Below, piece after piece: positions 7,681 through 36,739 of a stretch of DNA of 43,221 bases. The stretch is taken from NCBI GenBank assembly GCA_016186995.1, contig JACPKQ010000006.1, positions 1-43,221 of the forward strand, read 5' to 3'. Source of the DNA: Deltaproteobacteria bacterium (GTDB lineage Bacteria; Bdellovibrionota; JACOXK01). The first letter of the stretch is position 1; each line of letters starts with the position of its first letter. The notes under the pieces were generated by a model that saw only the letters and a list, made by a program, of their open reading frames with translations, was not told the origin of the DNA and made no database searches. A program made the position numbers and the translations under genes.

Positions 7681-7767
7681 TCCTGTCATTGCGAGCGCAG
7701 CGAAGCAATCCCATCGCGGTAGCGATGAGATCGCCACAGTTTCCTAATGGAAACTTCGCGATGACGG
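7681..7767 (+). repeat. Palindromic dispersed repeat, family A (full-length copy)
   Basis: CCTGTCATTGCGAGCGCAGC-GAAGCAATCCCATCGCGGTA continues to AACTTCGCGATGACGGC. It sits between the divergent YLDPGT gene and the glycerophosphotransferase gene. The copy at 11063-11139 is a near match in the opposite orientation, so the two bracket the 7.8-11 kb operon as inverted copies. Confidence 0.85.
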
Positions 7768-11062: not shown

Positions 11063-11139
11063 TTGTCATCACGAGCCCGTAGGGCGTGGTGATCTCATCG
11101 CTACCGCGATGGGATTGCTTCGTTTCACTCGCAATGACG
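11063..11139 (+). repeat. Palindromic dispersed repeat, family A (inverted relative to 7681 copy)
   Basis: TTGTCATCACGAGCCCGTAG...CATCGCTACCGCGATGGGAT-TGCTTCG...CTCGCAATGACG. The central part is the reverse complement of the centre of the 7681 copy. It lies right after the pyruvate-kinase-like gene. Confidence 0.85.
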
Positions 11140-21190: not shown

Positions 21191-21243
21191 AGAATGGGCT
21201 CTTATGAAAGTTTCATGCCAAGAGTTGTAAAATACATTTCAAC

Positions 21244-21326
21244 CTGTCATTCCCGCGGAGGCGGGAATCCAGAAATCCCTAAAAATACTGGATCCCAGAT
21301 AACCCTTCGGGTTTCTGGGATGACAA
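21244..21326 (+). repeat. Palindromic dispersed repeat, family B (long copy)
   Basis: CTGTCATTCCCGCGGAGGCG-GGAATCCAG followed by CTGGATCCCAGATAACCCTT-CGGGTTTCTGGGATGACA: two hairpin halves in one element, between divergent genes. Confidence 0.85.
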
Positions 21327-23495: not shown

Positions 23496-25463
23496 CTACT
23501 TAAAAAAGTTTTTGAATTGTTCCAGGCTTTGGGGGTTAGCAAGGGCGTCTTTGTTTTTTACTTCTTCACCATGAATTATTTGGGTTACGGCCATTTCTAC
23601 TTTTTTGCCACTTAAGGTTCTTGGAATTTCATTAACCTGAAAAATGTATTTAGGTTTGTGACGAGGCGAAGCCTCTTTTTTAATGTTTTCTATAAGTTCA
23701 TTTTTGATTTTATCATCAAGTTTTTTATTTTTTTTAAGCACCACAAAAAGAACAATTTCAATATCGTTATCGGCGTTGTGCCCAACCACAATGCTATCTA
23801 AAATATCCGGGTGAGTTTCAACAATTCGGTCAATTTCTGCAGTACCAATGCGGACTCCACCTGGATTTAATGTAGCATCACTTCTTCCATAAACAATAAC
23901 TCCACCATGTTTTGTAAGCTCAACAAAATCACCATGGCGCCACACACCTGGGTAGTTTTCAAAATAGGCTTTCTTGTATTTTTTGCCATCAGGGTCATTC
24001 CAAAAACTTACAGGCATAGAAGGAAAGGGTGTTTCGCACACAAGCTCGCCCTTTTTGCCTACAACAGGTTTTGCATTCTCATCATAAACTTTGACATCCA
24101 TTCCTAAGCCAAGAGATTGAATCTCTCCAGAATAAACTGGAAGCATGGAGTTACCCAACATGAAACAAGAAATAATATCAGTGCCTCCACAAATACTTGC
24201 AAGCTCAACATCCTTTTTAACATGCTTATAAATCCATTTAAAATTTTCTTCAGAAAGAGGAGAGCCTGTTGAAAGAATAGTACGAAGTGAGGAAAGATCG
24301 ATGTTTTTTGAAGGTTCAACGTGTGCTTTTTCACACGCAGAAAAATATTTGGGGCTAGAACCTAAAACGGTTATTTTATGTTGTTCAGCAAGCTTCCATA
24401 ATTGATCTGTTGTTGGATAAACGGTGGCACCATCATAAAGAACAAGAGTAGATCCACAGGCTAGAGAAGAAACAAGCCAGTTCCACATCATCCACCCACA
24501 GGTGGTGTAATAGGTAATAATATCTTCTCTTTTAAGATCTGTGTGAAGTTTAAGCTCTTTTAAGTGTTGTAAAAGTGTGCCACCTGCTCCATGTACAATG
24601 CATTTAGGAATGCCTGTGGTGCCTGATGAATACATAATGTACACAGGATGATCAAAAGGAAGTTGTTCAAAAAATTGTTCTGAATTGGAGGACTTTTTTT
24701 TCTCCAAAACGTGCGAAAAAAAACACACTCCAATTCTCTCATAATCCTGGATTCCCTTTTCCAAGGGAATGACAGGAGAGTCAAACGTTGAGATGACAGT
24801 GTGTTTTAAAGAAGGAAGTGCTTTTTGAATCATTTTTACTTTATCTAAAACAGGAAAAGTTTTACCATTATAGTGGTAAAAACTAGGGGCAAACAAAACT
24901 TTGGGTTCAATCTGACCAAAACGATCAAGAATTCCTTTAAAACCAAAATCGGGTGAGCAGGATGACCAAATTGCCCCAAGCGCCGTCGTTGCAAGCATGG
25001 CAACCACAGTATCGATACAATTTGGAAGAAGGCTTGCAACCCTATCATTTTTTTGAACTCCAAAATCATTTTTTAAAATAAAGGCAAGTTGCATAACTTG
25101 TTTGTAAAGCTTTGCATAACTCCAGGTAATCATCTCTCCATCTTCCCTATGATAAATAAGGGCAGGTCGTTCATCTTTAAAGCGCAAAAGATTTTCTGCG
25201 AAATTAAGCTTGGCACCTTGAAACCACTTTGTTCCAGGCATAAGAGGTTTACCCATAACTTGTGTATAATCTTTTGAAGCAATCACGCCACAAAACTTCC
25301 ACACTTCTTCCCAAAAAAGCGCTGGGTTTTTGACTGACCACGTGTGGAGTGTTTGGTAAGAGTCGTTTGAAAGAGAGTATTTTTTCTGAACGTGCTTCAG
25401 AAAAGAATACATTTGTGTTTTTTGTATTTTCTCTTGAGAAGGCTTCCAAAGAAGTTCTTTCAT
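23496..25463 (-). CDS. aacS: Acetoacetyl-CoA synthetase with a repeat-encoded insertion
   Basis: This 655-residue ANL-superfamily enzyme activates acetoacetate to acetoacetyl-CoA with ATP. Characteristic features are W-F-G-A-K-L-N-F-A-E-N near the N-terminus, GAIWSSCSPDFG, the P-loop YSSGTTGIPKCIVHG, TTCGWMMWNW, the adenylate-binding region SICGGTD, and the C-terminal catalytic lysine segment PRTLSGKKVE. Just before the P-loop is about 30 residues (PVIPLEKGIQDYERIGVCFF... to SNSEQ) encoded by a family B repeat and a 55-bp family D hairpin in tandem. Both stay in frame. It is coupled by a 4-base overlap to acetyl-CoA acetyltransferase, giving a ketone-body utilisation pair. Confidence 0.92.
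   Translation of the reverse strand: MKELLWKPSQEKIQKTQMYSFLKHVQKKYSLSNDSYQTLHTWSVKNPALFWEEVWKFCGVIASKDYTQVMGKPLMPGTKWFQGAKLNFAENLLRFKDERPALIYHREDGEMITWSYAKLYKQVMQLAFILKNDFGVQKNDRVASLLPNCIDTVVAMLATTALGAIWSSCSPDFGFKGILDRFGQIEPKVLFAPSFYHYNGKTFPVLDKVKMIQKALPSLKHTVISTFDSPVIPLEKGIQDYERIGVCFFSHVLEKKKSSNSEQFFEQLPFDHPVYIMYSSGTTGIPKCIVHGAGGTLLQHLKELKLHTDLKREDIITYYTTCGWMMWNWLVSSLACGSTLVLYDGATVYPTTDQLWKLAEQHKITVLGSSPKYFSACEKAHVEPSKNIDLSSLRTILSTGSPLSEENFKWIYKHVKKDVELASICGGTDIISCFMLGNSMLPVYSGEIQSLGLGMDVKVYDENAKPVVGKKGELVCETPFPSMPVSFWNDPDGKKYKKAYFENYPGVWRHGDFVELTKHGGVIVYGRSDATLNPGGVRIGTAEIDRIVETHPDILDSIVVGHNADNDIEIVLFVVLKKNKKLDDKIKNELIENIKKEASPRHKPKYIFQVNEIPRTLSGKKVEMAVTQIIHGEEVKNKDALANPQSLEQFKNFFK
24682..24736 (-). 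repeat. 55-bp hairpin element, family D, in frame in aacS
   Basis: Arms GAATTGGAG and CTCCAATTC flank T8/A8 tracts and the loop CTCCAAAACGTGCG (+ strand). The reverse complement matches 36499-36553 at 50 of 55 positions. Two of the five differences form a compensatory base-pair change in the stem. It encodes the GVCFFSHVLEKKKSSN part of the protein. Confidence 0.88.
24745..24776 (-). repeat. Family B repeat in frame in aacS, next to family D
   Basis: TCCTGGATTCCCTTTTCCAA-GGGAATGACAGG; it lies 8 bases from the family D element, so the inserted block is composite. Confidence 0.83.
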
Positions 25464-26623
25464 AGGAGTTCAACTGCTAAAGCAACGGCTTCACCACCAC
25501 CTATACAGAGGGTTGCAAGTCCTCTTTTCTTTTTAAGACGTTTTAAAGCATAAAGTAGGGTCACAAGAATACGTGCACCACTTGCACCAATAGGGTGGCC
25601 AAGGGCTACAGCTCCCCCATGTACGTTTACTTTTTTGGGATCAAGTTTAAGTTCATAAATAGCTGCCATCGTGACAACTGCAAAAGCTTCATTAATTTCC
25701 CAAAGATCAACAGAGTCTATACCCCAGTTTAACTTTTGAAGAAGTTTTTGAACTGCTGTAACAGGGGCTGTTGTAAACCATTCAGGTGCTTGGGCAGATT
25801 GAGTAAACCCACAAATTTTTGCCAATGCTTTTCCATTATTTTTTTCTGAAATAACGACTGCTGCACCCCCATCATTAAGGGTTGAGGCGTTAGCCGCAGT
25901 GACGCTGCCTGCTTTATCAAAAACAGGTGGAAGTGTTGCAATTTTATCAAACTTAACACGCATGGGTTCTTCATCTGTGTGAACGAGAACAATTTCTTTT
26001 CCCTGTTTGACTTCAACTGCTACGATTTCATCTTTGAAATAACCTTCCTTAATTGCTTTTTGAGCTTTGTGATAACTTTCAGCTGCGAATTCATCTTGCT
26101 TAGCTCTTGAAAACTTATATTTCTTCACACACATTTCGGCGGCAGTGCCCATATGAAAATTATTATAAACATCCCAAAGCCCGTCTTTAACCATAGAGTC
26201 TACAACTTTACCATGCCCTAGACGATAACCCGTACGTGCTTGTTCAATAAGGTAAGGAGCTCGTGACATGTTTTCCATGCCCCCTGCAACAACGGTTTTG
26301 CTATCCCCTGCAAGAATGGATTGTGCCCCTAACATCACAGTTTTAAGCCCTGAGCCACATACTTTATTAACTGTGGTGCAAGGAATGGTGTTAGGAAGCC
26401 CTGAAAAAATACTTGCTTGACGTGCTGGGGCTTGTCCTAAACCACCTGTGAGAACACACCCCATTAATACTTCATCAATGTCTTCTTTTTTTGTGCCTGA
26501 TCTTTTTAAAGCTTCCTTGATAGCAATACTTCCAAGTTTTGGAGCAGGAATTGTACTTAAAGATTTACAAAAAGATCCAATAGGTGTGCGAACAGCACCT
26601 AAAATAAATATTTCTTTCTCCAT
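25460..26623 (-). CDS. atoB: Acetyl-CoA C-acetyltransferase (thiolase II)
   Basis: This 387-residue thiolase carries all catalytic residues: nucleophile Cys in [10 protein letters not shown] (about 88), His in [13 protein letters not shown], and the second Cys in [11 protein letters not shown]. It cleaves acetoacetyl-CoA to two acetyl-CoA or runs in reverse. It starts at ATG 26623 and overlaps the aacS start by 4 bases. Unlike the two degenerate thiolase-fold proteins at 17-19 kb, this one is intact, so it probably serves the butyrate/acetoacetate route made up of genes elsewhere in the window. Confidence 0.95.
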
Positions 26624-26828
26624 TTTAGAAATGTGAAGGAAGGCGCCTGTCTTGTCAATGTTTCAAAAGATGCAAGTATTCTTTCCTTTAAGATTTTTGG
26701 TCAGACATTAAATTGTTCATTTTTGGGAAGTATTCCTTACATCAACTCTATAAAAATTATATGATTTCCATAGAGCATTTTCTTATTTTTAAAAAAGCTT
26801 CAAATTCTATCTTCTTGGAATGTTTAAG

Positions 26829-26853
26829 ATTCCCGCCTGCGCGGGAATGACAG
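26829..26853 (+). repeat. Short perfect hairpin, family B core
   Basis: ATTCCCGCCTGCGCGGGAAT followed by GACAG, in the 293-bp divergent region between atoB and the M6 protease gene. The rest of that gap is AT-rich and shows no ORF. Confidence 0.8.
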
Positions 26854-26916
26854 TAAGGTTATGGCACAGGATTTGCTTTGTATTAATAACAGTTATTGTG
26901 TCATAAAGGAGTGTGA

Positions 26917-29187
26917 GTGTTTAGGGTTCTTCGAACTCTGACATTGGCAGTTACAATTTTTCTTTCCTTAGAGGTTTCCTCAAAACCATACGATCAAGTT
27001 CATTATGGATGCCTTGCCGATTTTGATGAGTACAAAGAACTTAAAACAGATCTCATCAAATATCGTGAAAGTAGTTTAGGTTCGTTTGAAAGATCCTCTC
27101 GCATTAATTCACGTTTCCCTATTCATACTTCACGTTTTTTACCTGGGGCAGAAGAAGTGACTTATCCACTTACAAGGGTAGATCGCATTCTGGTGGTTCT
27201 TGTCGAGTTTACCGGAGAGAATGAAGGAGAAGGCCCGCTTCATAATAAGATCCCTGAACCTCAGTTTCCAAATACACATACTTTTTGGAAGAAGGATTTT
27301 GATACACAGCACTATGAAGACATGCTTTTTAGTCGTGATCCCAAGAAAAAAAGCATGGCCAATTTTTACTTAGAGCAATCGAGCGGTAGATACACGGTCG
27401 AAGGTAAAGTTGTTGGGTGGTACAAACTTCCAAATGCAGAAAAATTTTACGGTGAAGATGATCCCAACAATGAGGTGTATGGAAAAGACAGGAAAAACGG
27501 CCCTGTGTGGAGAGTTGTCAAAGATGCCATTGAATCGCTTGAAGTACAGGGTGTTGATGTGTCTTACTTTGATCAAGAAGATCGTTATGATTTCGATAAA
27601 GATGGCAATTTTAGAGAACCCGATGGTTATATTGACCATGCCATGATTGTACATGCGGGTATGGGTCAAGAGGCAGGAGGGGGGGAAGAAGGAAGCAATG
27701 CGATGTGGAGTCACAGATCTGTTGCTAACTTTATAATGAACGGCGGGCCTTCTCAAGTTGGGCCACAATATTATAAAAAAATGGGTGGTATTCGTGTGCC
27801 TGGCTTGCAAGACAAGTGGGTACTTGATTACACTCTTATGCCAGAAAATGGTGGAGTAGGTATTTTTTCTCATGAGTATGGCCATGATTTAGGGTTACCC
27901 GATCTTTACGACACGCGTCCTGTAAAGAACTCTCAATCGTCCGTTGCCTTTTGGTCTGTCATGAGTAGTGGCTCGTGGACGGCAGATGAAAATAATATTT
28001 TAGGTACACAACCCACACACATGTCAGCCTGGGGTAAAGAAAAATTAGGTTGGCTTGATCTTGAAGAAATTCATTTAGATCATGTTGCAACTCCAAGACA
28101 AATTGTTCTTGATAGAGCAAGCTTTCAGGGAAAAAACAAACAAGCTCTTAAAATTAATCTTCCTAAACACGAAAAGGTTGTGAAAGTTGCCGAGCCTCAA
28201 AGTGGGGCTTATCTTTTCTTTGGTGGAAGTGGGGATCTCCTCAATTCATTTATGATTAAAAGATTTGATTTAAGAAATGTTTCTCAAGCTACGCTTTATT
28301 TCAAAACATTATACGATATCGAAGAAAATTATGATTATGCCTATGTTGAAGTTAAAAAAGCTGCGTCAGGGTTTCAAACAATTTCTGGCAATATTACAAC
28401 AGATCTGAACCCCAATAGCTTAAACAGAGGTTTTGGTATTACAGGAAAGTCAGACGGGTGGGTGGTGGCCTCCTTTGATTTAACACCTTTTGTTGGAAAT
28501 ATCATTGAGCTTCGTTTCTTTTATGAAACTGACGCTAATATGAACAAAAAAGGCATTGTTGTTGATGATATTTCCATTCCGGAAATTGGTTTTTATGATA
28601 ACGCCGAAGCTGATCAAAGCTGGCTTTCAAATGGGTTTAAAAGATTACATTATGGAGAAAATGTTGAACACCATGATCACTATTATTTAGCTGAATGGCG
28701 TGCTTATCATGGTTATGATTCTGCTTTAGGAAATGTTTATAAAGGTATGCCATTAGGAGAGAATTTACCTTCCATTGAGTTTTATAAATACGTTCCAGGT
28801 CTTGTTCTATGGTATAGAAACCTGAAGTATCAGGAGGGTGATAATAACGTTGGTGTGCACCCAGGAGAAGGGTTTCTGCTCGTTGTGGATGCAAACTCAG
28901 AACCGAGGTTAGCACAAGAAAAAACACCATGGGGAACAACCATTCAGGTTTTTGATGCAGCTTTTGGGTTAAAAACGATAGCGCCATTTTTTATAACAGG
29001 ACTTGATAAAAATCTTCACAAAATAGAGACCTTTGCTAACCCTCTTTTTGATGATCGTAATACTTATTATTCTGAGCTTGATCCAGATAATTCAGTACAT
29101 GTGCCTAACATGGGTGTGGAGTTAAAAGTTTTAGAAACGTCACAAGACGACTCATCCGTTGTCCTTTCTCTTCGTAAAAGAATATAG
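26917..29187 (+). CDS. Secreted M6-family (immune inhibitor A-like) metalloprotease
   Basis: This 756-residue exported protease starts at GTG 26917, six bases after AAAGGAG. The signal peptide is LRTLTLAVTIFLSLEVSSK. The zinc motif is at 319-332, HEYGHDLGLPDLYD (HExxH plus Asp), with DGYIDHAMIVHAG before it and MSSGSW after it, as in immune inhibitor A. The C-terminal third has a beta-rich module (LRNVSQATLYFKTLYDIEENY, GIVVDDISIPEIGF) like the VEG/MAM-type fold of M6 proteases. It would degrade host or environmental proteins outside the cell. It is followed by three more exported-protein genes on the same strand. Confidence 0.9.
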   Translation: MFRVLRTLTLAVTIFLSLEVSSKPYDQVHYGCLADFDEYKELKTDLIKYRESSLGSFERSSRINSRFPIHTSRFLPGAEEVTYPLTRVDRILVVLVEFTGENEGEGPLHNKIPEPQFPNTHTFWKKDFDTQHYEDMLFSRDPKKKSMANFYLEQSSGRYTVEGKVVGWYKLPNAEKFYGEDDPNNEVYGKDRKNGPVWRVVKDAIESLEVQGVDVSYFDQEDRYDFDKDGNFREPDGYIDHAMIVHAGMGQEAGGGEEGSNAMWSHRSVANFIMNGGPSQVGPQYYKKMGGIRVPGLQDKWVLDYTLMPENGGVGIFSHEYGHDLGLPDLYDTRPVKNSQSSVAFWSVMSSGSWTADENNILGTQPTHMSAWGKEKLGWLDLEEIHLDHVATPRQIVLDRASFQGKNKQALKINLPKHEKVVKVAEPQSGAYLFFGGSGDLLNSFMIKRFDLRNVSQATLYFKTLYDIEENYDYAYVEVKKAASGFQTISGNITTDLNPNSLNRGFGITGKSDGWVVASFDLTPFVGNIIELRFFYETDANMNKKGIVVDDISIPEIGFYDNAEADQSWLSNGFKRLHYGENVEHHDHYYLAEWRAYHGYDSALGNVYKGMPLGENLPSIEFYKYVPGLVLWYRNLKYQEGDNNVGVHPGEGFLLVVDANSEPRLAQEKTPWGTTIQVFDAAFGLKTIAPFFITGLDKNLHKIETFANPLFDDRNTYYSELDPDNSVHVPNMGVELKVLETSQDDSSVVLSLRKRI

Positions 29188-29201
29188 GTAACTTCATGTC
29201 T

Positions 29202-29260
29202 GTGTCACCCTGAATGTTCTCTTGTCACGAATTATATCTTTCGCTGCGCTCAAGATGACT
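29202..29260 (-). repeat. Palindromic dispersed repeat, family C (inverted orientation)
   Basis: GTCACCCTGAATGTTC... followed by TATATCTTTCGCTGCGCTCA-AGATGAC is the reverse complement design of 5587-5652. It sits between the protease and lipoprotein genes. Confidence 0.8.
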
Positions 29261-29307
29261 CCAGGTCGTTCTTGAAGTGTGATCTGAGGGCTGATACTAT
29301 TCTTGCT

Positions 29308-30111
29308 ATGCGAAAAGGTATCATTTTTGTTTTCCTCATTTTTTTTACCTTTGTCTCTTGCCAGAAAAAGCCTATTTCTCCACCTCCACCGATAGCTCAA
29401 GAAAAAGTAGAAGAGGTTGCTCAACTTTTAGAACCCGAAATTCCGCCCTTGGAAGTACCTAAAAAAAATCTGCGTGAATTTAAAAACAAACCTTTGTATG
29501 TAGAAGTTTCTGAAATAAATACAGATGATATTTCTGAAATTATTGTTTCTCCAGATAGAAAGCCAACGACTCCGTTGTTTCATGTTGAAAAAGAAGTTTT
29601 AGTGCTTAATCAAAAAACATTTGAAGAGTTTGAAAAAAAAGGGCTTCTCAATGCACAATTAATCGTTTCTTATGAAATTCTTTATGAAGGAAAAATGCGA
29701 GAGATTTCACAGCGTGAATATTTTATTTTTACAAGTTTTCCAAGCATAATAACATTCCACAATAAATTTACAGATAAGTTAGAACTCTCCCCCAGGGAGG
29801 CTCTCCAAAAACTATTTGATCAAAGAATTCTGCCCGAAAAAATAGTGTTTAGTCAAAATGAAGCGGGGGCACTTACCATCGAAGTGGGTACTGTTAAAAC
29901 AACTTTTTATAACGCTAATCAAAAAACTATTTTCAAAGCTGAAAAGCAAGCAGAGCTTGTTCACAAAGTGCTAGCGCCTCTTCCTTTAGAGGTGAAGATA
30001 AATCCAGAAGATATTAAACTTGTTTCAAAAAGTTTAGGGCTTAAAACTTTCACGACAAAAATAAATATTTTAAACCGAGGAGTCTTAAAACAAGTTGAAA
30101 TTGAAGAGTAA
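29308..30111 (+). CDS. Putative lipoprotein of unknown function
   Basis: With the start at ATG 29308 the protein has 267 residues. The signal IIFVFLIFFTFVSC ends in a lipobox with Cys18, followed by a proline-rich linker (KKPISPPPP). The remainder is rich in Glu and Lys, with a repeated LPLEVKINPEDIK-like strand pattern. No known domain is recognised. The upstream start at 29272 adds 12 residues that derive from the repeat and hide the signal, so it is rejected. The 3' end overlaps the next gene by 17 bases, suggesting coupled production with the metalloprotease-vWA protein. Confidence 0.7.
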   Translation: MRKGIIFVFLIFFTFVSCQKKPISPPPPIAQEKVEEVAQLLEPEIPPLEVPKKNLREFKNKPLYVEVSEINTDDISEIIVSPDRKPTTPLFHVEKEVLVLNQKTFEEFEKKGLLNAQLIVSYEILYEGKMREISQREYFIFTSFPSIITFHNKFTDKLELSPREALQKLFDQRILPEKIVFSQNEAGALTIEVGTVKTTFYNANQKTIFKAEKQAELVHKVLAPLPLEVKINPEDIKLVSKSLGLKTFTTKINILNRGVLKQVEIEE

Positions 30112-32728
30112 ATTCAAGGTGCTTTTCATTTTTTTGCTTTGGTCTTTGAAGGCTTATGCCATTTCTTACACCGTTGTTGAAAAACCCAATTTTTGGGGTA
30201 CTGGCATTGGTGAAACCTTTATTTATACAGATCACTTTCTTGTTTCTTTTGATACCAGTGATAGTTCTAAAGAAGAAGCTGTCAAAGTTGCTGAGTATTT
30301 AGAAAAGTCGTGGGATGTTTATGTTAAGCAATATAATTTTAAACCGCCTACACATCGTGTCCACACTATTTTGAAACCCACATTATCAGATAACGCTTTA
30401 GGGCTTGCTTATTTTCCAACGTGGATTTCAAACGCCTATATTGAAATGAAATCAGGTATGGGTCAAACCACTCTTAAAGAAACAGCCTCTCATGAATTTT
30501 TTCATATTGTTCAATATCAATATGATACCAGTGAAAATAGGTGGACGATTGAAGCAACGGCAACTGCTGTTGAAGACGAAGTGTTTCCAGAAACTTTTGG
30601 TTATCTTGTTTTTGAACCCCATTGGTATGAACGTTGGGACAAGGGTTTAGATCTGATGTCTCAAAAAGATTATTTTGAGTATGGTGGCTCTCTTTTTTTC
30701 AAATACATTATGGAAAATGTCAAAGGAACCAATCTTAAAGGGGATGTAGTTCAAGGCATGCCTCTTTTAAGAAGCATTTGGGAATATGCTGCAACGGATA
30801 AAGGAGACAATACATTTTCTGCTATTTCAACTGTTTTAGGTGGGGCTTTAGAAGAAAACTATATTTATCAAAATATTTTTGCCGATTTTGTGGCTTCCGT
30901 TCAGGTGAAGAAAGATGTTTTAAACTATTCTTTTAAAAGAGGAAGTGAAATTATAGGTAAGCTTCACCCAGAAATACTTTATAGCAATTTTTATTACTAT
31001 AATTTTAATCGACAAACAGGCGTGATTTCAGCTGGCCCTGAATATGAATTAAGTTCACTAACCGCAAAATATTTCGAAGTTCTTTTGCCAACTTATAGAG
31101 AAAGTCCTTTACCGCTTTATTTATTTGTAAGTGGACGTTATGGGAACTCTTTCAAAGTGCGTGTTATTGGAGAAGCACACAATAAAAAAGAAGTATTAAG
31201 AGGCGAAAAGGAGGATCGCTCTCCAGCCACTCGACTCACACTCCCCAAAGTAGGTGGAAAAGAAGGTGGAGAGGGTTTTCAAAAAGTTTATGTAGCCGTC
31301 AGTAACCCACTTAAAAGCAAAAAGGAAAGGTTTCAGATTCGTTATATTATAGGGGGTGCTCCGTATCTTAAATCTGTCACAATTGTAAGAGAAGATGACA
31401 AAAAAGCAATTTATCAAGGAGAGTGGGTAGAAGAGAAAGATTCAAGAAGTAGTGTTCACAGTCGAAAGTTAAAAACACAAAAAACACCCATGAAGGCTGA
31501 AGATGGAAAAAGTATCAGACTTGAAGTTGAGCTCAAGTTTTCAGAGCCTCTTTTTTCTTATCCAGAACTTTTTTTATTACAAGGGGCAACACCACTTCCA
31601 GGGGTGAGTTTTATTTCTTCTAAAAAATCCGAAGATTATAGAACCTGGAATGGAACACTTGTGCTTCCACGGCTGGGGGAAGACACAACAGAACTTACTT
31701 TAAAAGTTTCGGCGCGGGATATTAAAGGGGATTATTTAGATACAAATCCCATTTCGGTTGCAGAACTTGAAGACGATGGAAGCAGGTGGTTGCGTTACGA
31801 AGGAGATGGAACACGGGGTACCTATGGTGGGGCTGATCAAAATCACAAGATAACATTTCAATATGAAGGCGGAAAATCCATTGTTCTTCTTGTGGATGCT
31901 TCAGGCAGTATGAAAGACAATGGTAAGATTGAAAAAGCAAAAAACTCTGCCATTGAAACCATTAACAATATTTCTTCTAAAGATGAAGTTTCTTTATGGG
32001 CTTTTTATGATTGTCGTTATATTAAAGTACTTCAAAACTTTACTCATAATAAAGAGCCTCTCATTAAAGCAGTTCAAGGTATTCAGCCTGCTTCAGGAAC
32101 GCCCTTAGCTGAGGGTATTAAGCTTGCAGGTAATTATCTTTTGAAAGAGGCTTCAAACGAAGAAAAAATACTTGTTGTGCTTTCTGATGGTGCGGAAAGT
32201 TGCGATGGAGACCCAGCCGCAGAGGCAAATGCTTTAACAGCGCACAATTTAAAAGTGCAATACGCCCCTTATTTTTCAAAGGGAACAAAAGAAAAGGGTG
32301 ATAAAGAACCCGAAGAGAAAGAGTTACCTCCTCATGAGGATCCAGTGCCACCAGAGGAAAAAGAAAAAGATGAATTTGTACCTTGCGACCCGCAGATATG
32401 GAAATCTTATGAAGTGAAAGAAGAAGGCGAAAAAATTCGTTATTATGTAATTTTTTACGAAGAAAAAGAAGCAGAAAAAAATTGTGTGATTTCTGCTCAA
32501 GTAGAGACCTACGGTGTTTATTATGGTGAAGTTGTTGGGGTAAAAGATTCTTTAAGCTGGGGAATTAATTCACAGCCTTCTCAAACTCAAAAAGAAACAG
32601 CTTATTATAAAACACAACAAAAATTATTTATTGAACTAGGTAGAAAATACAAAGACCAAGCCCATTATACACAACGTGATGCGCTTGAAAGGGTTGATTA
32701 CTTAGTTAGGAAAATACTTAAAAAATGA
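30095..32728 (+). CDS. Exported metallopeptidase-vWA chimera
   Basis: This 877-residue protein starts at TTG 30095 with CCGAGGAG upstream; a GTG at 30119 is an alternative. The signal peptide is KFKVLFIFLLWSLKAYA. An N-terminal zinc-protease-like domain has HEFFHIVQY at 133-141, followed by WTIEATATAVED (E153 or E160 as third ligand). After a beta-rich middle comes a von Willebrand A domain with intact MIDAS: DASGSM at 601-606, ASGTPLAEG, and VVLSDGAES. The vWA loses its expected last strand and helices, and a Pro/Glu-rich linker and a unique C-terminus follow. The C-terminal vWA-like piece instead appears in the next protein, whose gene overlaps by 4 bases. Adhesion or surface processing is a plausible role. 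Confidence 0.75.
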   Translation: MKLKSKFKVLFIFLLWSLKAYAISYTVVEKPNFWGTGIGETFIYTDHFLVSFDTSDSSKEEAVKVAEYLEKSWDVYVKQYNFKPPTHRVHTILKPTLSDNALGLAYFPTWISNAYIEMKSGMGQTTLKETASHEFFHIVQYQYDTSENRWTIEATATAVEDEVFPETFGYLVFEPHWYERWDKGLDLMSQKDYFEYGGSLFFKYIMENVKGTNLKGDVVQGMPLLRSIWEYAATDKGDNTFSAISTVLGGALEENYIYQNIFADFVASVQVKKDVLNYSFKRGSEIIGKLHPEILYSNFYYYNFNRQTGVISAGPEYELSSLTAKYFEVLLPTYRESPLPLYLFVSGRYGNSFKVRVIGEAHNKKEVLRGEKEDRSPATRLTLPKVGGKEGGEGFQKVYVAVSNPLKSKKERFQIRYIIGGAPYLKSVTIVREDDKKAIYQGEWVEEKDSRSSVHSRKLKTQKTPMKAEDGKSIRLEVELKFSEPLFSYPELFLLQGATPLPGVSFISSKKSEDYRTWNGTLVLPRLGEDTTELTLKVSARDIKGDYLDTNPISVAELEDDGSRWLRYEGDGTRGTYGGADQNHKITFQYEGGKSIVLLVDASGSMKDNGKIEKAKNSAIETINNISSKDEVSLWAFYDCRYIKVLQNFTHNKEPLIKAVQGIQPASGTPLAEGIKLAGNYLLKEASNEEKILVVLSDGAESCDGDPAAEANALTAHNLKVQYAPYFSKGTKEKGDKEPEEKELPPHEDPVPPEEKEKDEFVPCDPQIWKSYEVKEEGEKIRYYVIFYEEKEAEKNCVISAQVETYGVYYGEVVGVKDSLSWGINSQPSQTQKETAYYKTQQKLFIELGRKYKDQAHYTQRDALERVDYLVRKILKK

Positions 32729-34227
32729 AATTTAAACTATTTTTCATCATGTTTTTTTTCTCTCTCATCCTGAGGGCTCAACCCGAAGGATCGATATCTA
32801 AGATTCAAGATAATTTTGAGCCAAACGACACAATAGAACAATCAAAACCCATTACTTTTGAAACACCCCATATTTTTTCTTTAAAAGAGCAAACCGATCA
32901 AGATTGGTTTTCATTTGTCATTCCAGCCCTGGGTTCCGACCTCTGGGGGAGACACCTCCCAGGACAGGCTCCGGCTGGAATCCAGGATCAACCTAAGAGC
33001 TATACTACCTTCAATATAGGTGGATTTTCAAACACCTCTCGATATTTTTCCGTAGAAGTTTTTGATCAAAATAAAAAACCCATCCCCATCTTTGAAAAGA
33101 AACAAAATTTACCTTTCACGCTTTTGCTTGAATCAGGAAAATACTATCTTAAAGTAACCCATGCAATAGGCCAACTTTATACACAAAAACTTACGCATCT
33201 TTTTTTAAGCGTAACACCTAACATTGATTCTCTTGAACCCAATGATAAGAAAGAAGAGGCCAGGCCTGCAAAATTTAACCAATATCAATCACTTCATTTA
33301 TTTCATGCAGGCGATCTCGATTATTTTCATTTTGAAATACCTGAACAAGGATATTTTAGAGTTTTTGTAGATAAAAAATATGCTTTGCAAACTCGGTATG
33401 AAATTATTTCTCAAAAAACTAACTTGTCATCCCTGCATACAGCCGAAGGCAACAGCAGGGATCTAAAAAGCGAAGCTACCTTTAAAAATGTTCCCATTTC
33501 TGGTTATGAATGGATTCGTATTGAACCTGGAAAGTATTTTATTAAATTTTATAGATCTGAAGATGGATATAGATTATGGTACAGAAAATATCCGTTCTAT
33601 CTTAAGTTTTTACCTGAGATAGATAGTGGAGTACCTCATACAGATAAACAAAGTGCACGAGTACTGCAATTAGGTAAAGTAGGGTTTTTTTATATTCCTA
33701 TTATGTCTGATCAAAACTATTTTAAAGTAGAAATACCTGAAGAGGGGCGTTATTTTTTAATGGTTCGCCCTGGTTATAAAGAAAATGGAGTGTTTGAAAC
33801 TGAGATTTGTCCTGAAAATGAAAGTAATATGGAGGACAAGTGTGAACAGTTTCAAAATTTTGATAGGTACAAAAATTTTAAGAAAGGAGTGTATTATATT
33901 AACATTTATAGAAAATATCGTTACACATCCTTTATTGATCAAAAATTTGAACTGTTACTTGTCAAAGGTGATGGCGGAAAATCTCCGCTTGATTTTTATA
34001 TTATTGATCTTGAAGGAGGAAATGCAACTGAAGCCCTTAAAAAAGTAACTGAAGCGGCAGGAGGGCATTATGTTCAAGCAAAATCAGAACGAGAGATTAA
34101 ACAAGCCCTTCAAGCGGCTGCCAAACAAAAGGGTCGTTCTTTTCTATGGCTTATGATAGTGGCCGCTATTTTAATAGCTTGTGGACTCGGTGGCTTCTAC
34201 CTCTACAAAAAACGTAATCCCCTTTGA
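32725..34227 (+). CDS. Membrane-anchored periplasmic/surface protein with PPC-like repeats and a vWA-like tail
   Basis: This 500-residue protein has a signal peptide (KFKLFFIMFFFSLIL) and three beta-sandwich-like repeats beginning NFEPNDTIEQ..DQDWFSFVIP, SLEPNDKKEEA..DLDYFHFEIP and GVPHTDKQSA..QNYFKVEIP. These resemble pre-peptidase C-terminal (PPC) domains. Residues 423-465 (DFYIIDLEGG...AAGGHYVQAKSEREIKQAL) match the final strand and helices of a vWA domain. A transmembrane helix at about 473-493 and a basic KKR tail follow. Three dispersed-repeat copies lie in frame: at the signal/mature junction (32764), in repeat 1 (32916) and at 33424. Coupled by 4 bases to the vWA protein; probably its partner. 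Confidence 0.7.
   Translation: MKFKLFFIMFFFSLILRAQPEGSISKIQDNFEPNDTIEQSKPITFETPHIFSLKEQTDQDWFSFVIPALGSDLWGRHLPGQAPAGIQDQPKSYTTFNIGGFSNTSRYFSVEVFDQNKKPIPIFEKKQNLPFTLLLESGKYYLKVTHAIGQLYTQKLTHLFLSVTPNIDSLEPNDKKEEARPAKFNQYQSLHLFHAGDLDYFHFEIPEQGYFRVFVDKKYALQTRYEIISQKTNLSSLHTAEGNSRDLKSEATFKNVPISGYEWIRIEPGKYFIKFYRSEDGYRLWYRKYPFYLKFLPEIDSGVPHTDKQSARVLQLGKVGFFYIPIMSDQNYFKVEIPEEGRYFLMVRPGYKENGVFETEICPENESNMEDKCEQFQNFDRYKNFKKGVYYINIYRKYRYTSFIDQKFELLLVKGDGGKSPLDFYIIDLEGGNATEALKKVTEAAGGHYVQAKSEREIKQALQAAAKQKGRSFLWLMIVAAILIACGLGGFYLYKKRNPL
32764..32798 (+). repeat. Family C repeat in frame at the signal-peptide end
   Basis: CTCATCCTGAGGGCTCAACC-CGAAGGATC encodes LILRAQPEGS, right at the hydrophobic core/cleavage region. 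Confidence 0.65.
32916..32989 (+). repeat. Family B repeat in frame
   Basis: TGTCATTCCAGCC... and GGCTGGAATCCAGGATC arms enclose a CTGGG...CCCAG-type inner stem. It encodes the segment from VIPALGSDLW to AGIQDQ inside the first PPC-like repeat. Confidence 0.82.
33424..33463 (+). repeat. Family B repeat in frame
   Basis: TTGTCATCCCTGCATACAGC...AACAGCAGGGATC encodes LSSLHTAEGNSRD; the palindromic CCCTG/CAGGG arms are preserved. Confidence 0.8.
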
Positions 34228-34256
34228 CTTAAAATTCTTTTCTTGTCATCCTACCA

Positions 34257-34859
34257 ATGATGTCAATCAAAATAAAACCTCTGAGTCTCGTGGGGCCTAT
34301 GGGATGTGGAAAATCTACCTTAGCACCACTTTTAGCCAAAGAACTTCAATGGCATTATTTTGATACCGATCAAATCGTTGTTCAGAATGAGACTTTGCTT
34401 TCCTGTCATTCTGAGCGAAGCGAAGAATATAGATCCTTCATGAGAAGTTTTGGAAGATTGCCTCAGGATGACAGAGGGAATAAGTTAAAGGCACTAGAAA
34501 TATTTCAAAAAAAAGGAGAACTTTATTTTCGAGAGCAAGAATATCAGGTTTTGAAAAAGATTTTTGAAGAAAATAAAAATAGTTATTTTGTTATTGCGTT
34601 AGGAGGTGGAACACTTGTCTTGGAAAAAAATAGAGATCTTCTTGTTTCTCAAACAAAAAGTATTTTTTTAAAAACTTCACTAGAAGAAATAGAAAAACGT
34701 CTTTTTTTAGAAGATAGGCCTTCTTGGTGTTCTACTTGGCTTCAAAAAGTATATCCTCAAAGAATTGGGTTTTATGAAATGAGTGATATTATTATTGATA
34801 CAGATTTTAAAAATCCTTCTCAGATTGTAAAAGAAATTGTTTCTGCTCTGAGTTCGTGA
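34257..34859 (+). CDS. aroK: Shikimate kinase with a repeat-encoded insertion
   Basis: This 200-residue kinase phosphorylates shikimate in aromatic amino-acid synthesis. The Walker A motif is GPMGCGKST (13-21). The FDTD motif (shikimate-binding Asp) is at 35-38, followed later by EIFQKKGELYFREQE with the shikimate-binding Arg, ALGGGTL, and a lid segment with DRPSW. Between FDTDQIVVQNET and ALEIF lies about 28 residues (SCHSERSEEYRSF... to DDRGNK) encoded by a family C repeat; typical kinases are about 170 residues and have only a few residues there. Two ATGs (34257, 34260) are adjacent. The 3' end overlaps the convergent DAHP synthase gene by 40 bases. Confidence 0.9.
   Translation: MMSIKIKPLSLVGPMGCGKSTLAPLLAKELQWHYFDTDQIVVQNETLLSCHSERSEEYRSFMRSFGRLPQDDRGNKLKALEIFQKKGELYFREQEYQVLKKIFEENKNSYFVIALGGGTLVLEKNRDLLVSQTKSIFLKTSLEEIEKRLFLEDRPSWCSTWLQKVYPQRIGFYEMSDIIIDTDFKNPSQIVKEIVSALSS
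34402..34474 (+). repeat. Family C repeat in frame in aroK
   Basis: CCTGTCATTCTGAGCGAAGC-GAAGAATATAGATCC...GATTGCCTCAGGATGACAG, a complete element with both terminal TGTCAT/ATGACA ends. Confidence 0.88.
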
Positions 34860-35605
34860 ACAAGTTTTTCGTAAGTTTTAAAATCAAGTGCTTGGCGCCC
34901 ATCACTTAAAGCTGTGTGCGGAGTAGGGTGAATTTCAATCATGAGTCCATCAGCGCCACTGACCAATGCTGCTTTTGCAAGTTTAGAAACATAGTGCGCA
35001 TGGCCCACCGCATGGGAAGGGTCTACCATAATAGGCAAGTTTGTTTTTTCTTTAAGAATAACAACGGCAGATAAATCAAGCGTATTACGAGTCGAAGGCT
35101 CAAAGGTTCGAATACCTCTTTCACACAAAATAACATTTGGGTTTCCTTCACGTGTAATGTACTCGGAAGCCCATAACAACTCTTCTATTGTCATCATCAT
35201 ACCTCTTTTAAGAAGAACGGGTTTTCTTTGCCGACCTGCCTCTTTAAGAAGATAGGGGTTTTGTGAACTGCGAGCGCCTATTTGAAGAACATCAACATAC
35301 TCATAGGCCAGTTTTATTTGTTCAGGTGTTGCTACTTCTGTCACTGTAAGAAGATTAAATTCTTCCCCAACTTCTTTAAGAAATTTAAGGGCTTCTTCAC
35401 CTAAACCTTGAAAACTTTGAGGGCTTGTCCTTAGTTTAAAACTACCCCCCCTTAAAAGAGGTGTTTCAGTTACTTTAAGAAAAGCAGCTATTTCTTTGAT
35501 TTGGTTTAAGCTTTCGACAGCACAGGGACCTGCACAAAGAAGTTTTTTTTCTCCACCTATACTCACCCCGTTTTTTCTTAAAGTAATTTCTCTGGTTTTT
35601 TCCAT
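34820..35605 (-). CDS. aroF: 3-deoxy-7-phosphoheptulonate (DAHP) synthase, AroA/KdsA-related type
   Basis: This 261-residue enzyme condenses PEP and erythrose-4-phosphate, the first step of the shikimate pathway. Motifs include LCAGPCAVES, RGGSFKLRTSPQSFQGLG, DVLQIGARSSQN, PVLLKRGM, CERGIRTFE and MVDPSHAVGHAHYV. It lacks any regulatory ACT, ferredoxin-like or chorismate-mutase domain, so it may be unregulated or controlled through a partner. ATG 35605 with AAAAGGAC upstream is preferred over 35665, whose extra residues are not conserved. It is convergent with aroK; the two genes overlap by 40 bases at their 3' ends. Confidence 0.92.
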   Translation of the reverse strand: MEKTREITLRKNGVSIGGEKKLLCAGPCAVESLNQIKEIAAFLKVTETPLLRGGSFKLRTSPQSFQGLGEEALKFLKEVGEEFNLLTVTEVATPEQIKLAYEYVDVLQIGARSSQNPYLLKEAGRQRKPVLLKRGMMMTIEELLWASEYITREGNPNVILCERGIRTFEPSTRNTLDLSAVVILKEKTNLPIMVDPSHAVGHAHYVSKLAKAALVSGADGLMIEIHPTPHTALSDGRQALDFKTYEKLVHELRAETISFTI

Positions 35606-35667
35606 GTCCTTTTTAAAGATATCCGATACGTATGTTAGGAGTGAACCTTTAAAAAAGGAGAGCAATC

Positions 35668-35997
35668 ATGGTAGGAGAAGGCGTTATTAAATATTGTATC
35701 GAAGAACATTGTGCAAGCCAGGCTCTCACAAAGGGATATTGCAGACTTCATTATATTAAAAATTGGAAGCATCTTAAAATGCAAGAAAAACTTAAATCTG
35801 AAAGACAACTTAATGAATACATTGAGCGTATGATGGATAAATATCCTGCAGATTACATTAAAATGATTCGAGAAGATCTTGCTTCAGATAAAGACCTGAG
35901 TGATCTTTTAACCCATGATCACTCAGATTCAGAGCATGAAGTGCTTGATGAAGATACTTTTGAAGTTCTTGAAGAACTCAAAAAGGGTATTAAATAA
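35668..35997 (+). CDS. Small C3H zinc-knuckle protein of unknown function
   Basis: The 109-residue product starts at ATG 35668 after an AAAAAGGAGAG site. C10, C15, C25 and H28 in YCIEEHCASQALTKGYCRLHY form a compact C-x4-C-x9-C-x2-H metal site, followed by a basic KNWKHLKM helix, a charged helix, and an acidic C-terminus (DHSDSEHEVLDED). I recall similar 'GYCRxHYxxNW' small proteins mainly in deltaproteobacteria-like genomes, of unknown function. The basic-then-acidic arrangement would suit nucleic-acid or RNA-polymerase contact, but that is a guess. The DCC protein gene follows 5 bases later. Confidence 0.75.
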   Translation: MVGEGVIKYCIEEHCASQALTKGYCRLHYIKNWKHLKMQEKLKSERQLNEYIERMMDKYPADYIKMIREDLASDKDLSDLLTHDHSDSEHEVLDEDTFEVLEELKKGIK

Positions 35998-36002
35998 CTT
36001 TC

Positions 36003-36353
36003 ATGTTTGAAAAGCGTCCTCTTATTATTTACGATGGTGACTGTCGCATTTGTTGCCGCTGGATTAACTTTCAAAAACATAAAATCAAAAAGAATCTTTT
36101 TTACTCTCCTTATCAAGATGTGCCGCAAGATTTTTTGAATATACCTTTAAAACAATTTCAAAAAAGTCTTCATTACATTGATGAGAAAGATCATGTTTTT
36201 GCAGGAGCTTATGCTGTGTGTAAGCTGTGGTCTTATAGGGAACATTTAAAATGGGTTCTTTGGCTTTATGAAAATATTCCCGGTTTTTCATTTGTGGCCG
36301 AGTTGCTTTATCAGTTAGTTGCAAAAAATAGAGCTCGTTTTCAAAAACCCTGA
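36003..36353 (+). CDS. DCC family (DUF393) thiol-disulfide oxidoreductase-like protein
   Basis: This 116-residue protein starts LIIYDGDCRICCRW. The DGDCxxCC motif (C14, C17, C18) defines the DCC family, predicted to have a thioredoxin-like fold. LHYIDEKDHVFAGAYAV and the WLYENIPGF stretch are also typical. The physiological substrate is unknown. It is probably co-transcribed with the zinc-knuckle gene; a repeat-filled gap follows. Confidence 0.87.
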   Translation: MFEKRPLIIYDGDCRICCRWINFQKHKIKKNLFYSPYQDVPQDFLNIPLKQFQKSLHYIDEKDHVFAGAYAVCKLWSYREHLKWVLWLYENIPGFSFVAELLYQLVAKNRARFQKP

Positions 36354-36382
36354 TTTATATCTTCACTAGTCCTATCTTTTGC

Positions 36383-36479
36383 CTGTCATTGCGAACGAAT
36401 GTGAAGCAATCCCCTAGAATTGATTTTTCAATTCTAGGAGATCGCCACGGGTTCTTTTGAGAACCCTCGCGATGACAGA
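36383..36479 (+). repeat. Palindromic dispersed repeat, family A
   Basis: CCTGTCATTGCGAACGAATG-TGAAGCAATCC, a central CTAGAATTGA...TCAATTCTAG palindrome, then GAGATCGCCACGGGTTC...GAACCCTCGCGATGACAG. It is the first of four repeats filling 36354-36739, a 386-bp stretch without a gene. Confidence 0.85.
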
Positions 36480-36492
36480 GGGAGTCGTATCC

Positions 36493-36559
36493 ATGAGAGA
36501 ATTGGGGTGTGTTTTTTTTCGCACGTTTTGGAGAAAAAAAATATCCCCAATTCAGAACC
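36493..36559 (+). repeat. Family D hairpin element (intergenic copy)
   Basis: Core 36499-36553: GAATTGGGG / CCCCAATTC arms, T8/A8 inner arms, loop CGCACGTTTTGGAG. Flanks ATGAGA and CAGAAC are shared with the aacS copy, so the element is about 65 bp. Confidence 0.88.
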
Positions 36560-36600
36560 AAGGTTGTTCATGAGGGCTATCAAGAACCTAAGTATCGAAC

Positions 36601-36625
36601 TAAAAAATATGCCCCAATTCAGAAG
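36601..36625 (+). repeat. Partial family D copy
   Basis: AAAAAATATGCCCCAATTC followed by AGAAG matches the 3' half of the neighbouring complete copy. Confidence 0.65.
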
Positions 36626-36639
36626 CAAAGTCGAATAAA

Positions 36640-36671: not shown

Positions 36672-36739
36672 AAAGCCATTTTAAGAACCAGGTTTTTGAT
36701 GGCTTGCGTTTTTTGTAAGTCTTGTTTAAATCTCTCTTG

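Follow-up and report, generated by a model that had tools for sequence, protein, structure and literature searches.

Palindromic repeats that can occupy a protein gene without breaking its reading frame are known from Rickettsia as Rickettsia palindromic elements (RPE). Several other kinds of short hairpin are dispersed in genomes. REPINs, which are moved by RAYTs, are short, non-autonomous extragenic palindromes present in many copies per genome; in them two REP sequences are conserved while the spacer varies, and compensatory changes in their stems have already been described (PMC3116915). Mitochondrial repetitive and double hairpin elements are also dispersed, occur within genes as well as elsewhere and come in related stem types, and those of sponge mitochondria conserve their stems and vary their loops (PMC2800124). 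Finally, template switching can make or mend perfect stems by copying one arm of a hairpin (PMC8794818).

Here we describe a hairpin repeat, D, in the genome of a deltaproteobacterium (GenBank assembly GCA_016186995.1; 1.68 Mb in 30 contigs). D shares several features with REPINs, being a short, non-autonomous, mostly extragenic palindrome with many copies and compensatory stem changes, and it shares with the mitochondrial elements its dispersal, its presence within a gene and its related stem types. The likeness to RPE seen here is in-frame insertion, which concerns one gene, aacS, and a contrast is that just 1 of the 20 full D copies lies in a conserved gene. D nonetheless differs from each of these systems: unlike REPINs it has unpaired ends and a conserved loop, in a genome where we found no Y1 transposase, and it reverses the sponge pattern by holding its loop constant and letting its stem vary. 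It differs from MITEs of DNA transposons in having neither terminal inverted repeats nor a target-site duplication, and from derivatives of group II introns or retrons in that its genome has no match to reverse transcriptase. D is probably a foldback repeat, small (about 80 bp), dispersed and non-autonomous, which was met in no other genome searched.

Results and discussion

Two hairpins and the element around them

The stretch analysed (hereafter the window; 43,221 nucleotides) is one complete contig. The first-pass annotation had described two hairpin copies of 55 bp each, at 24682-24736 (minus strand, inside aacS) and at 36499-36553 (intergenic), and both are exactly as described. Sequence inspection bore out their common architecture of outer arms, T8/A8 inner arms and the loop CGCACGTTTTGGAG, and also the double change between them, the outer arms being GAATTGGAG/CTCCAATTC in the aacS copy and GAATTGGGG/CCCCAATTC in the intergenic one, with a G-C pair replaced by A-T. 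A half copy claimed at 36601-36625 is real. What needed revision was the size of the element: 55 bp is the length of the hairpin core, whereas D as a whole covers about 82 bp at 36486-36567 and has conserved unpaired ends. The features are as follows.

36486..36567, plus strand: complete D element, with left end CGTATCCATGAGA, hairpin at 36499-36553 and right end AGAACCAAGGTTGT; extent set by the information profile across 34 complete copies
36499..36553, plus strand: hairpin core of the intergenic copy, with arms GAATTGGGG/CCCCAATTC, T8/A8 and loop CGCACGTTTTGGAG
24677..24744, minus strand: D copy in aacS, read in frame; extent by homology, the outer ends being partly diverged or lost
24682..24736, minus strand: core of the hairpin in aacS, carrying the double change from G-C to A-T
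24747..24776, no strand assigned: second palindromic repeat (CTGGATTCCC...GGGAATGACAGG type), abutting the aacS D copy and also within the open reading frame
23496..25463, minus strand: aacS, acetoacetate--CoA ligase, the host gene; 655-aa open reading frame, whose repeats lie in a linker that varies between relatives
36601..36635, plus strand: right half of D (TAAAAAATATGCCCCAATTCAGAAGCAAAGTCGAA), continuing into another repeat module; full copy L012 has the same right end followed by the same module

Pairing is possible between the C that opens the loop and the G that closes it, which leaves 12 unpaired bases. The two window copies form an inverted pair (66 nt, 92% identical), the intergenic one lying upstream of the miaB open reading frame, which starts at 36722. 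RNA folding z-scores ranged from -2.5 to -8.5 for six D copies. We rejected a reading of D as a terminator, as its T run lies within the stem and not downstream of it.

The genome is also rich in mosaics of TGTCAT...ATGACA-type palindromic modules. Repeats of this type, belonging to several families, lie in the window at 7685-7737, 11086-11138, 21243-21272, 24747-24776 and 26828-26853.

Size and forms of the family

Across the genome the D unit measures about 80 bp, with the conserved unpaired ends CCATGAGA...AGAACCAAGGTTGT flanking the hairpin. The 12-base loop GCACGTTYWGGA had 19 exact matches, all 19 in D elements, and its reversed pattern had none; the loop version CGCACGTTTWGGAG occurs 13 times, and one further full copy, L099, combines a D stem with a changed loop. 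Stems fall into three main types, the T8/A8 type (5 copies), the TTTTTTGC/GCAAAAAA type (8 copies) and a longer type starting GAGTAGGGACTGGGTGTTTTG (5 copies: L044, L046, L050, L055 and L059), with one intermediate copy, L060.

A genome search allowing 3 mismatches placed the right-end motif at 76 sites and the left-end motif at 60, some chance matches included. Complete elements, for which both ends were required, number 34: the hairpin is full in 20 and shortened at the tip in 14. D halves, and copies that other repeats interrupt, come on top of this figure. The shortened forms have lost the loop and tip and kept the ends and basal stem, and five of them, in different flanks, have the same minimal form, GAGTAGGCTACTC, with at most one base changed. 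The flanks of the 34 complete elements differ as well, information falling to background outside about RTCCATGAGA...AGAACCAAGGTTGT. Since 14 of the 34 complete copies lack the tip, the ends and basal palindrome appear sufficient for a copy to exist, and D copies may have multiplied as units recognised by these parts. Other hairpin modules often interrupt D or adjoin it, and some D copies have longer flanking repeats in common, so that part of the spread of D may be duplication of composites. We also asked about enclosure of D copies in outer stems of their neighbours, which was not significant overall (p 0.10), single nestings of the module E inside D being plain.

Upkeep of stem pairing

The 19 loop-bearing copies, compared over 17 stem pairs, gave 316 Watson-Crick, 5 G-U and 2 mismatched cells. 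Among the 10 distinct cores, 9 of the 17 pairs change on both sides, and cells changed on both sides numbered 22 against 6.5 expected, a count reached in none of 500 shuffles. The covariation score was 0.446 (at most 0.12 with slid partners) and 98.8% of distinct cells were paired (39-62% when partners were slid), in an alignment that leans towards structure, as cores were cut with the outer ends as anchor for the arms and the loop as anchor for the inner stem, internal-loop bases being omitted. Independent double changes include the G-C to A-T replacement in the aacS copy and another such replacement in L010. Neither of the outcomes named at first pass as refuting, an absence of more copies or many unpaired substitutions in the arms, occurred.

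The same annotation had read the double change as selection on pairing. Upkeep of pairing is strongly supported by the counts above, but selection is one possible cause of two, as template switching also yields paired changes (PMC8794818). In our reading selection, template switching or both keep the D stem able to fold. It is possible, although we would not expect it, that switching of DNA templates between the arms (quasi-palindrome correction) homogenised them without any selection for pairing. Such switching has been documented in RNA hairpins (PMC8794818), and the near-exclusive Watson-Crick pairing of D, with few G-U pairs, is what arm copying predicts. Four composites (L116, L123, L129 and L135) consist of the D left end followed by right-arm sequence and the neighbouring module in inverted orientation, an arrangement that suggests arm-mediated inversion or template switching. 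Arm copying can, however, invert loops, and in D the loop sequence and its orientation to the ends are constant in 19 of 19 copies, the 12-base loop varying at two positions only. Between stem types the arms differ at 1-7 of 17 pairs and the loop at 0-2 of 12 sites. This constancy of the loop argues that template switching alone is insufficient. Pairing in D is probably kept because a folded strand, whether RNA or single-stranded DNA, is needed, with template-switch mending of mismatches as a help.

Hairpins that appear to take part of their stem from the target

The likeness to template-switch hairpins, which bears on D, bears especially on E, a module nested with D in this genome; such hairpins lack a conserved core (PMC8794818), whereas the apical core of E is identical from site to site. 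The E core, GGAGGATCYACACYGGGCGGAGGGG, occurs in 16 copies in this genome and in 2, 12, 4, 1 and 1 copies in five relatives of the class, with none in the other 362 of the 368 phylum genomes searched, and E matched no Rfam family. It sits at the tip of stems of 24-42 bp whose sequence is locus-specific (L155-L204, in this genome and in relatives G002 and G004-G007). In the relatives these stems differ from copy to copy, except for inner stretches beside the core that some copies have in common. The stem is lost in 2 of 18 copies; where it is present, 446 cells are Watson-Crick, 15 G-U and 17 mismatched, and the orthologous E hairpins of the congeners G006 (L180) and G007 (L181) show four matched double changes in the inner 20 pairs. 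E cores with degenerate stems were also seen within open reading frames (L190 in G004, L191 in G005).

The gene names given here for E and F sites in relatives (purS, purQ, ligA, purC, acyltransferase-like) were read by eye from translations. Between purS and purQ, E is present in G005 (L207) and G004 and absent from the congener G006 (L208) and from G003. The left E arm of G005 aligns with native G006 sequence over 89 nt, the right arm repeats that native flank in inverted orientation, and from the start of purQ onwards the sequence is native again. This is the one well-documented filled and empty pair for E, and E may possibly have been lost from G006 rather than gained in G005. At other sites the left E arm takes in the 3' coding end of ligA (G002) and the right E arm the 3' end of an acyltransferase-like gene (G005, L179). 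A second core, F (GAAGTAAAGCGCAG...GAGCCATGAAGC), lies just after purC in G002 (L209), where its stem takes in the final codons of that gene; copies of the F core in the genome of D include L003, L010 and L020. From these alignments E appears to gain part of its stem from the target, and F perhaps does so too.

These sites raise a further explanation of D itself, as one of a set of class-wide conserved-core hairpins that form part of their stem on insertion by copying flanking DNA inverted, D having later spread with its stem ready-made. E appears to behave in this way in relatives and F lends it support, but D arms are common to many copies, its outer ends are unpaired, no target-derived stem was seen for it and its loop was not found outside its own genome, and we consider this account of D rather doubtful. 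An origin of D by a target-derived stem, as in E, is thus offered as a hypothesis only, given its common arms and unpaired ends. For the class as a whole, we tentatively picture tiny core-defined hairpins that would acquire a long stem on insertion, one arm being native flank and the other a newly made inverted copy, as by snap-back-like synthesis, with matched changes then maintaining the pairing of the inner stem; E and F would be such hairpins, and D a relative spreading with its stem.

Genomic setting and distribution

Full D copies are intergenic except for the one in aacS (1 of 20 in a conserved gene). Every kind of intergenic arrangement is represented among them, codirectional with or against the genes, convergent and divergent, and they showed no gene-strand bias and no rule of orientation to neighbouring genes. 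In relatives from other genera of the class, the aacS linker lies between acyl-adenylate motifs and is variable, of similar length and without D. In G001, of the same family, the linker holds a different palindromic repeat (GTCATTCC...GGATGACA type; L137), also in frame, which indicates that this linker tolerates such insertions; tolerance of D there may come from the added residues being read through.

D DNA had 48 matches in its own genome, none in G001 and chance-level matches only elsewhere among its phylum relatives; it was not found in 58 other genomes of the phylum. Scanning GTDB contigs with the D loop gave 22 stretches, all unrelated on inspection; in viral contigs D had two matches, both unrelated and A/T-rich, and E had none. 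Rfam 15 covariance models found no match in the window and none for D loci at E<=1. We call D species-restricted on this distribution.

This setting bears on whether D could be a cis-acting RNA hairpin, kept for the host through a role in mRNA stability, processing or regulation. A conserved loop on a covarying stem is what a bound RNA would show, and the opposite of the sponge mitochondrial repeats, with their conserved stems and free loops (PMC2800124). The position and orientation of D relative to genes are nevertheless not fixed, it was not found in relatives, the 14 shortened copies dispense with loop and tip altogether and Rfam offered no match, all of which make such a role unlikely.

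Signatures of mobility

We found no target-site duplication: direct repeats in the flanks did not exceed the length seen in permuted pairs (permutation p 0.92). The true D ends also have no terminal inverted repeats, CCATGAGA and AGAACCAAGGTTGT falling beyond the palindrome and having no complementarity to each other. Nor was there an empty and filled site pair for D among the relatives compared. The first-pass suggestion of a link to a REP-associated transposase was not upheld, since Y1_Tnp (PF01797) had no match in this 93%-complete genome and the same search was positive in 5 of 14 control genomes. Reverse transcriptase (RVT_1, PF00078) likewise had no match, so that neither of the two mobilising enzymes sought is present among the sequences available. 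That D is a REP or REPIN moved by a RAYT is accordingly very improbable and largely refuted, for although extragenic palindromes with compensatory changes also fit REPINs (PMC3116915), the Y1 domain is absent from a genome of which roughly 7% is missing, and no obvious REP doublet organisation was seen by eye among the 34 D copies, each a single hairpin.

Our statements on mobility have a comparative basis. For D as a dispersed foldback repeat, multiplication could proceed through an enzyme supplied in trans or through the replication and repair machinery.

D is a clean natural data set of matched stem changes in mobile hairpins, in which selection can be set against template switching. It suits this question in that its loop and ends are fixed, its stems are free and its shortened forms reveal which parts are dispensable. 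A limited literature search found no description of a target-built stem as a mode of insertion. If this reading of E is true, the E core would be mobile and would construct its stem out of target sequence.
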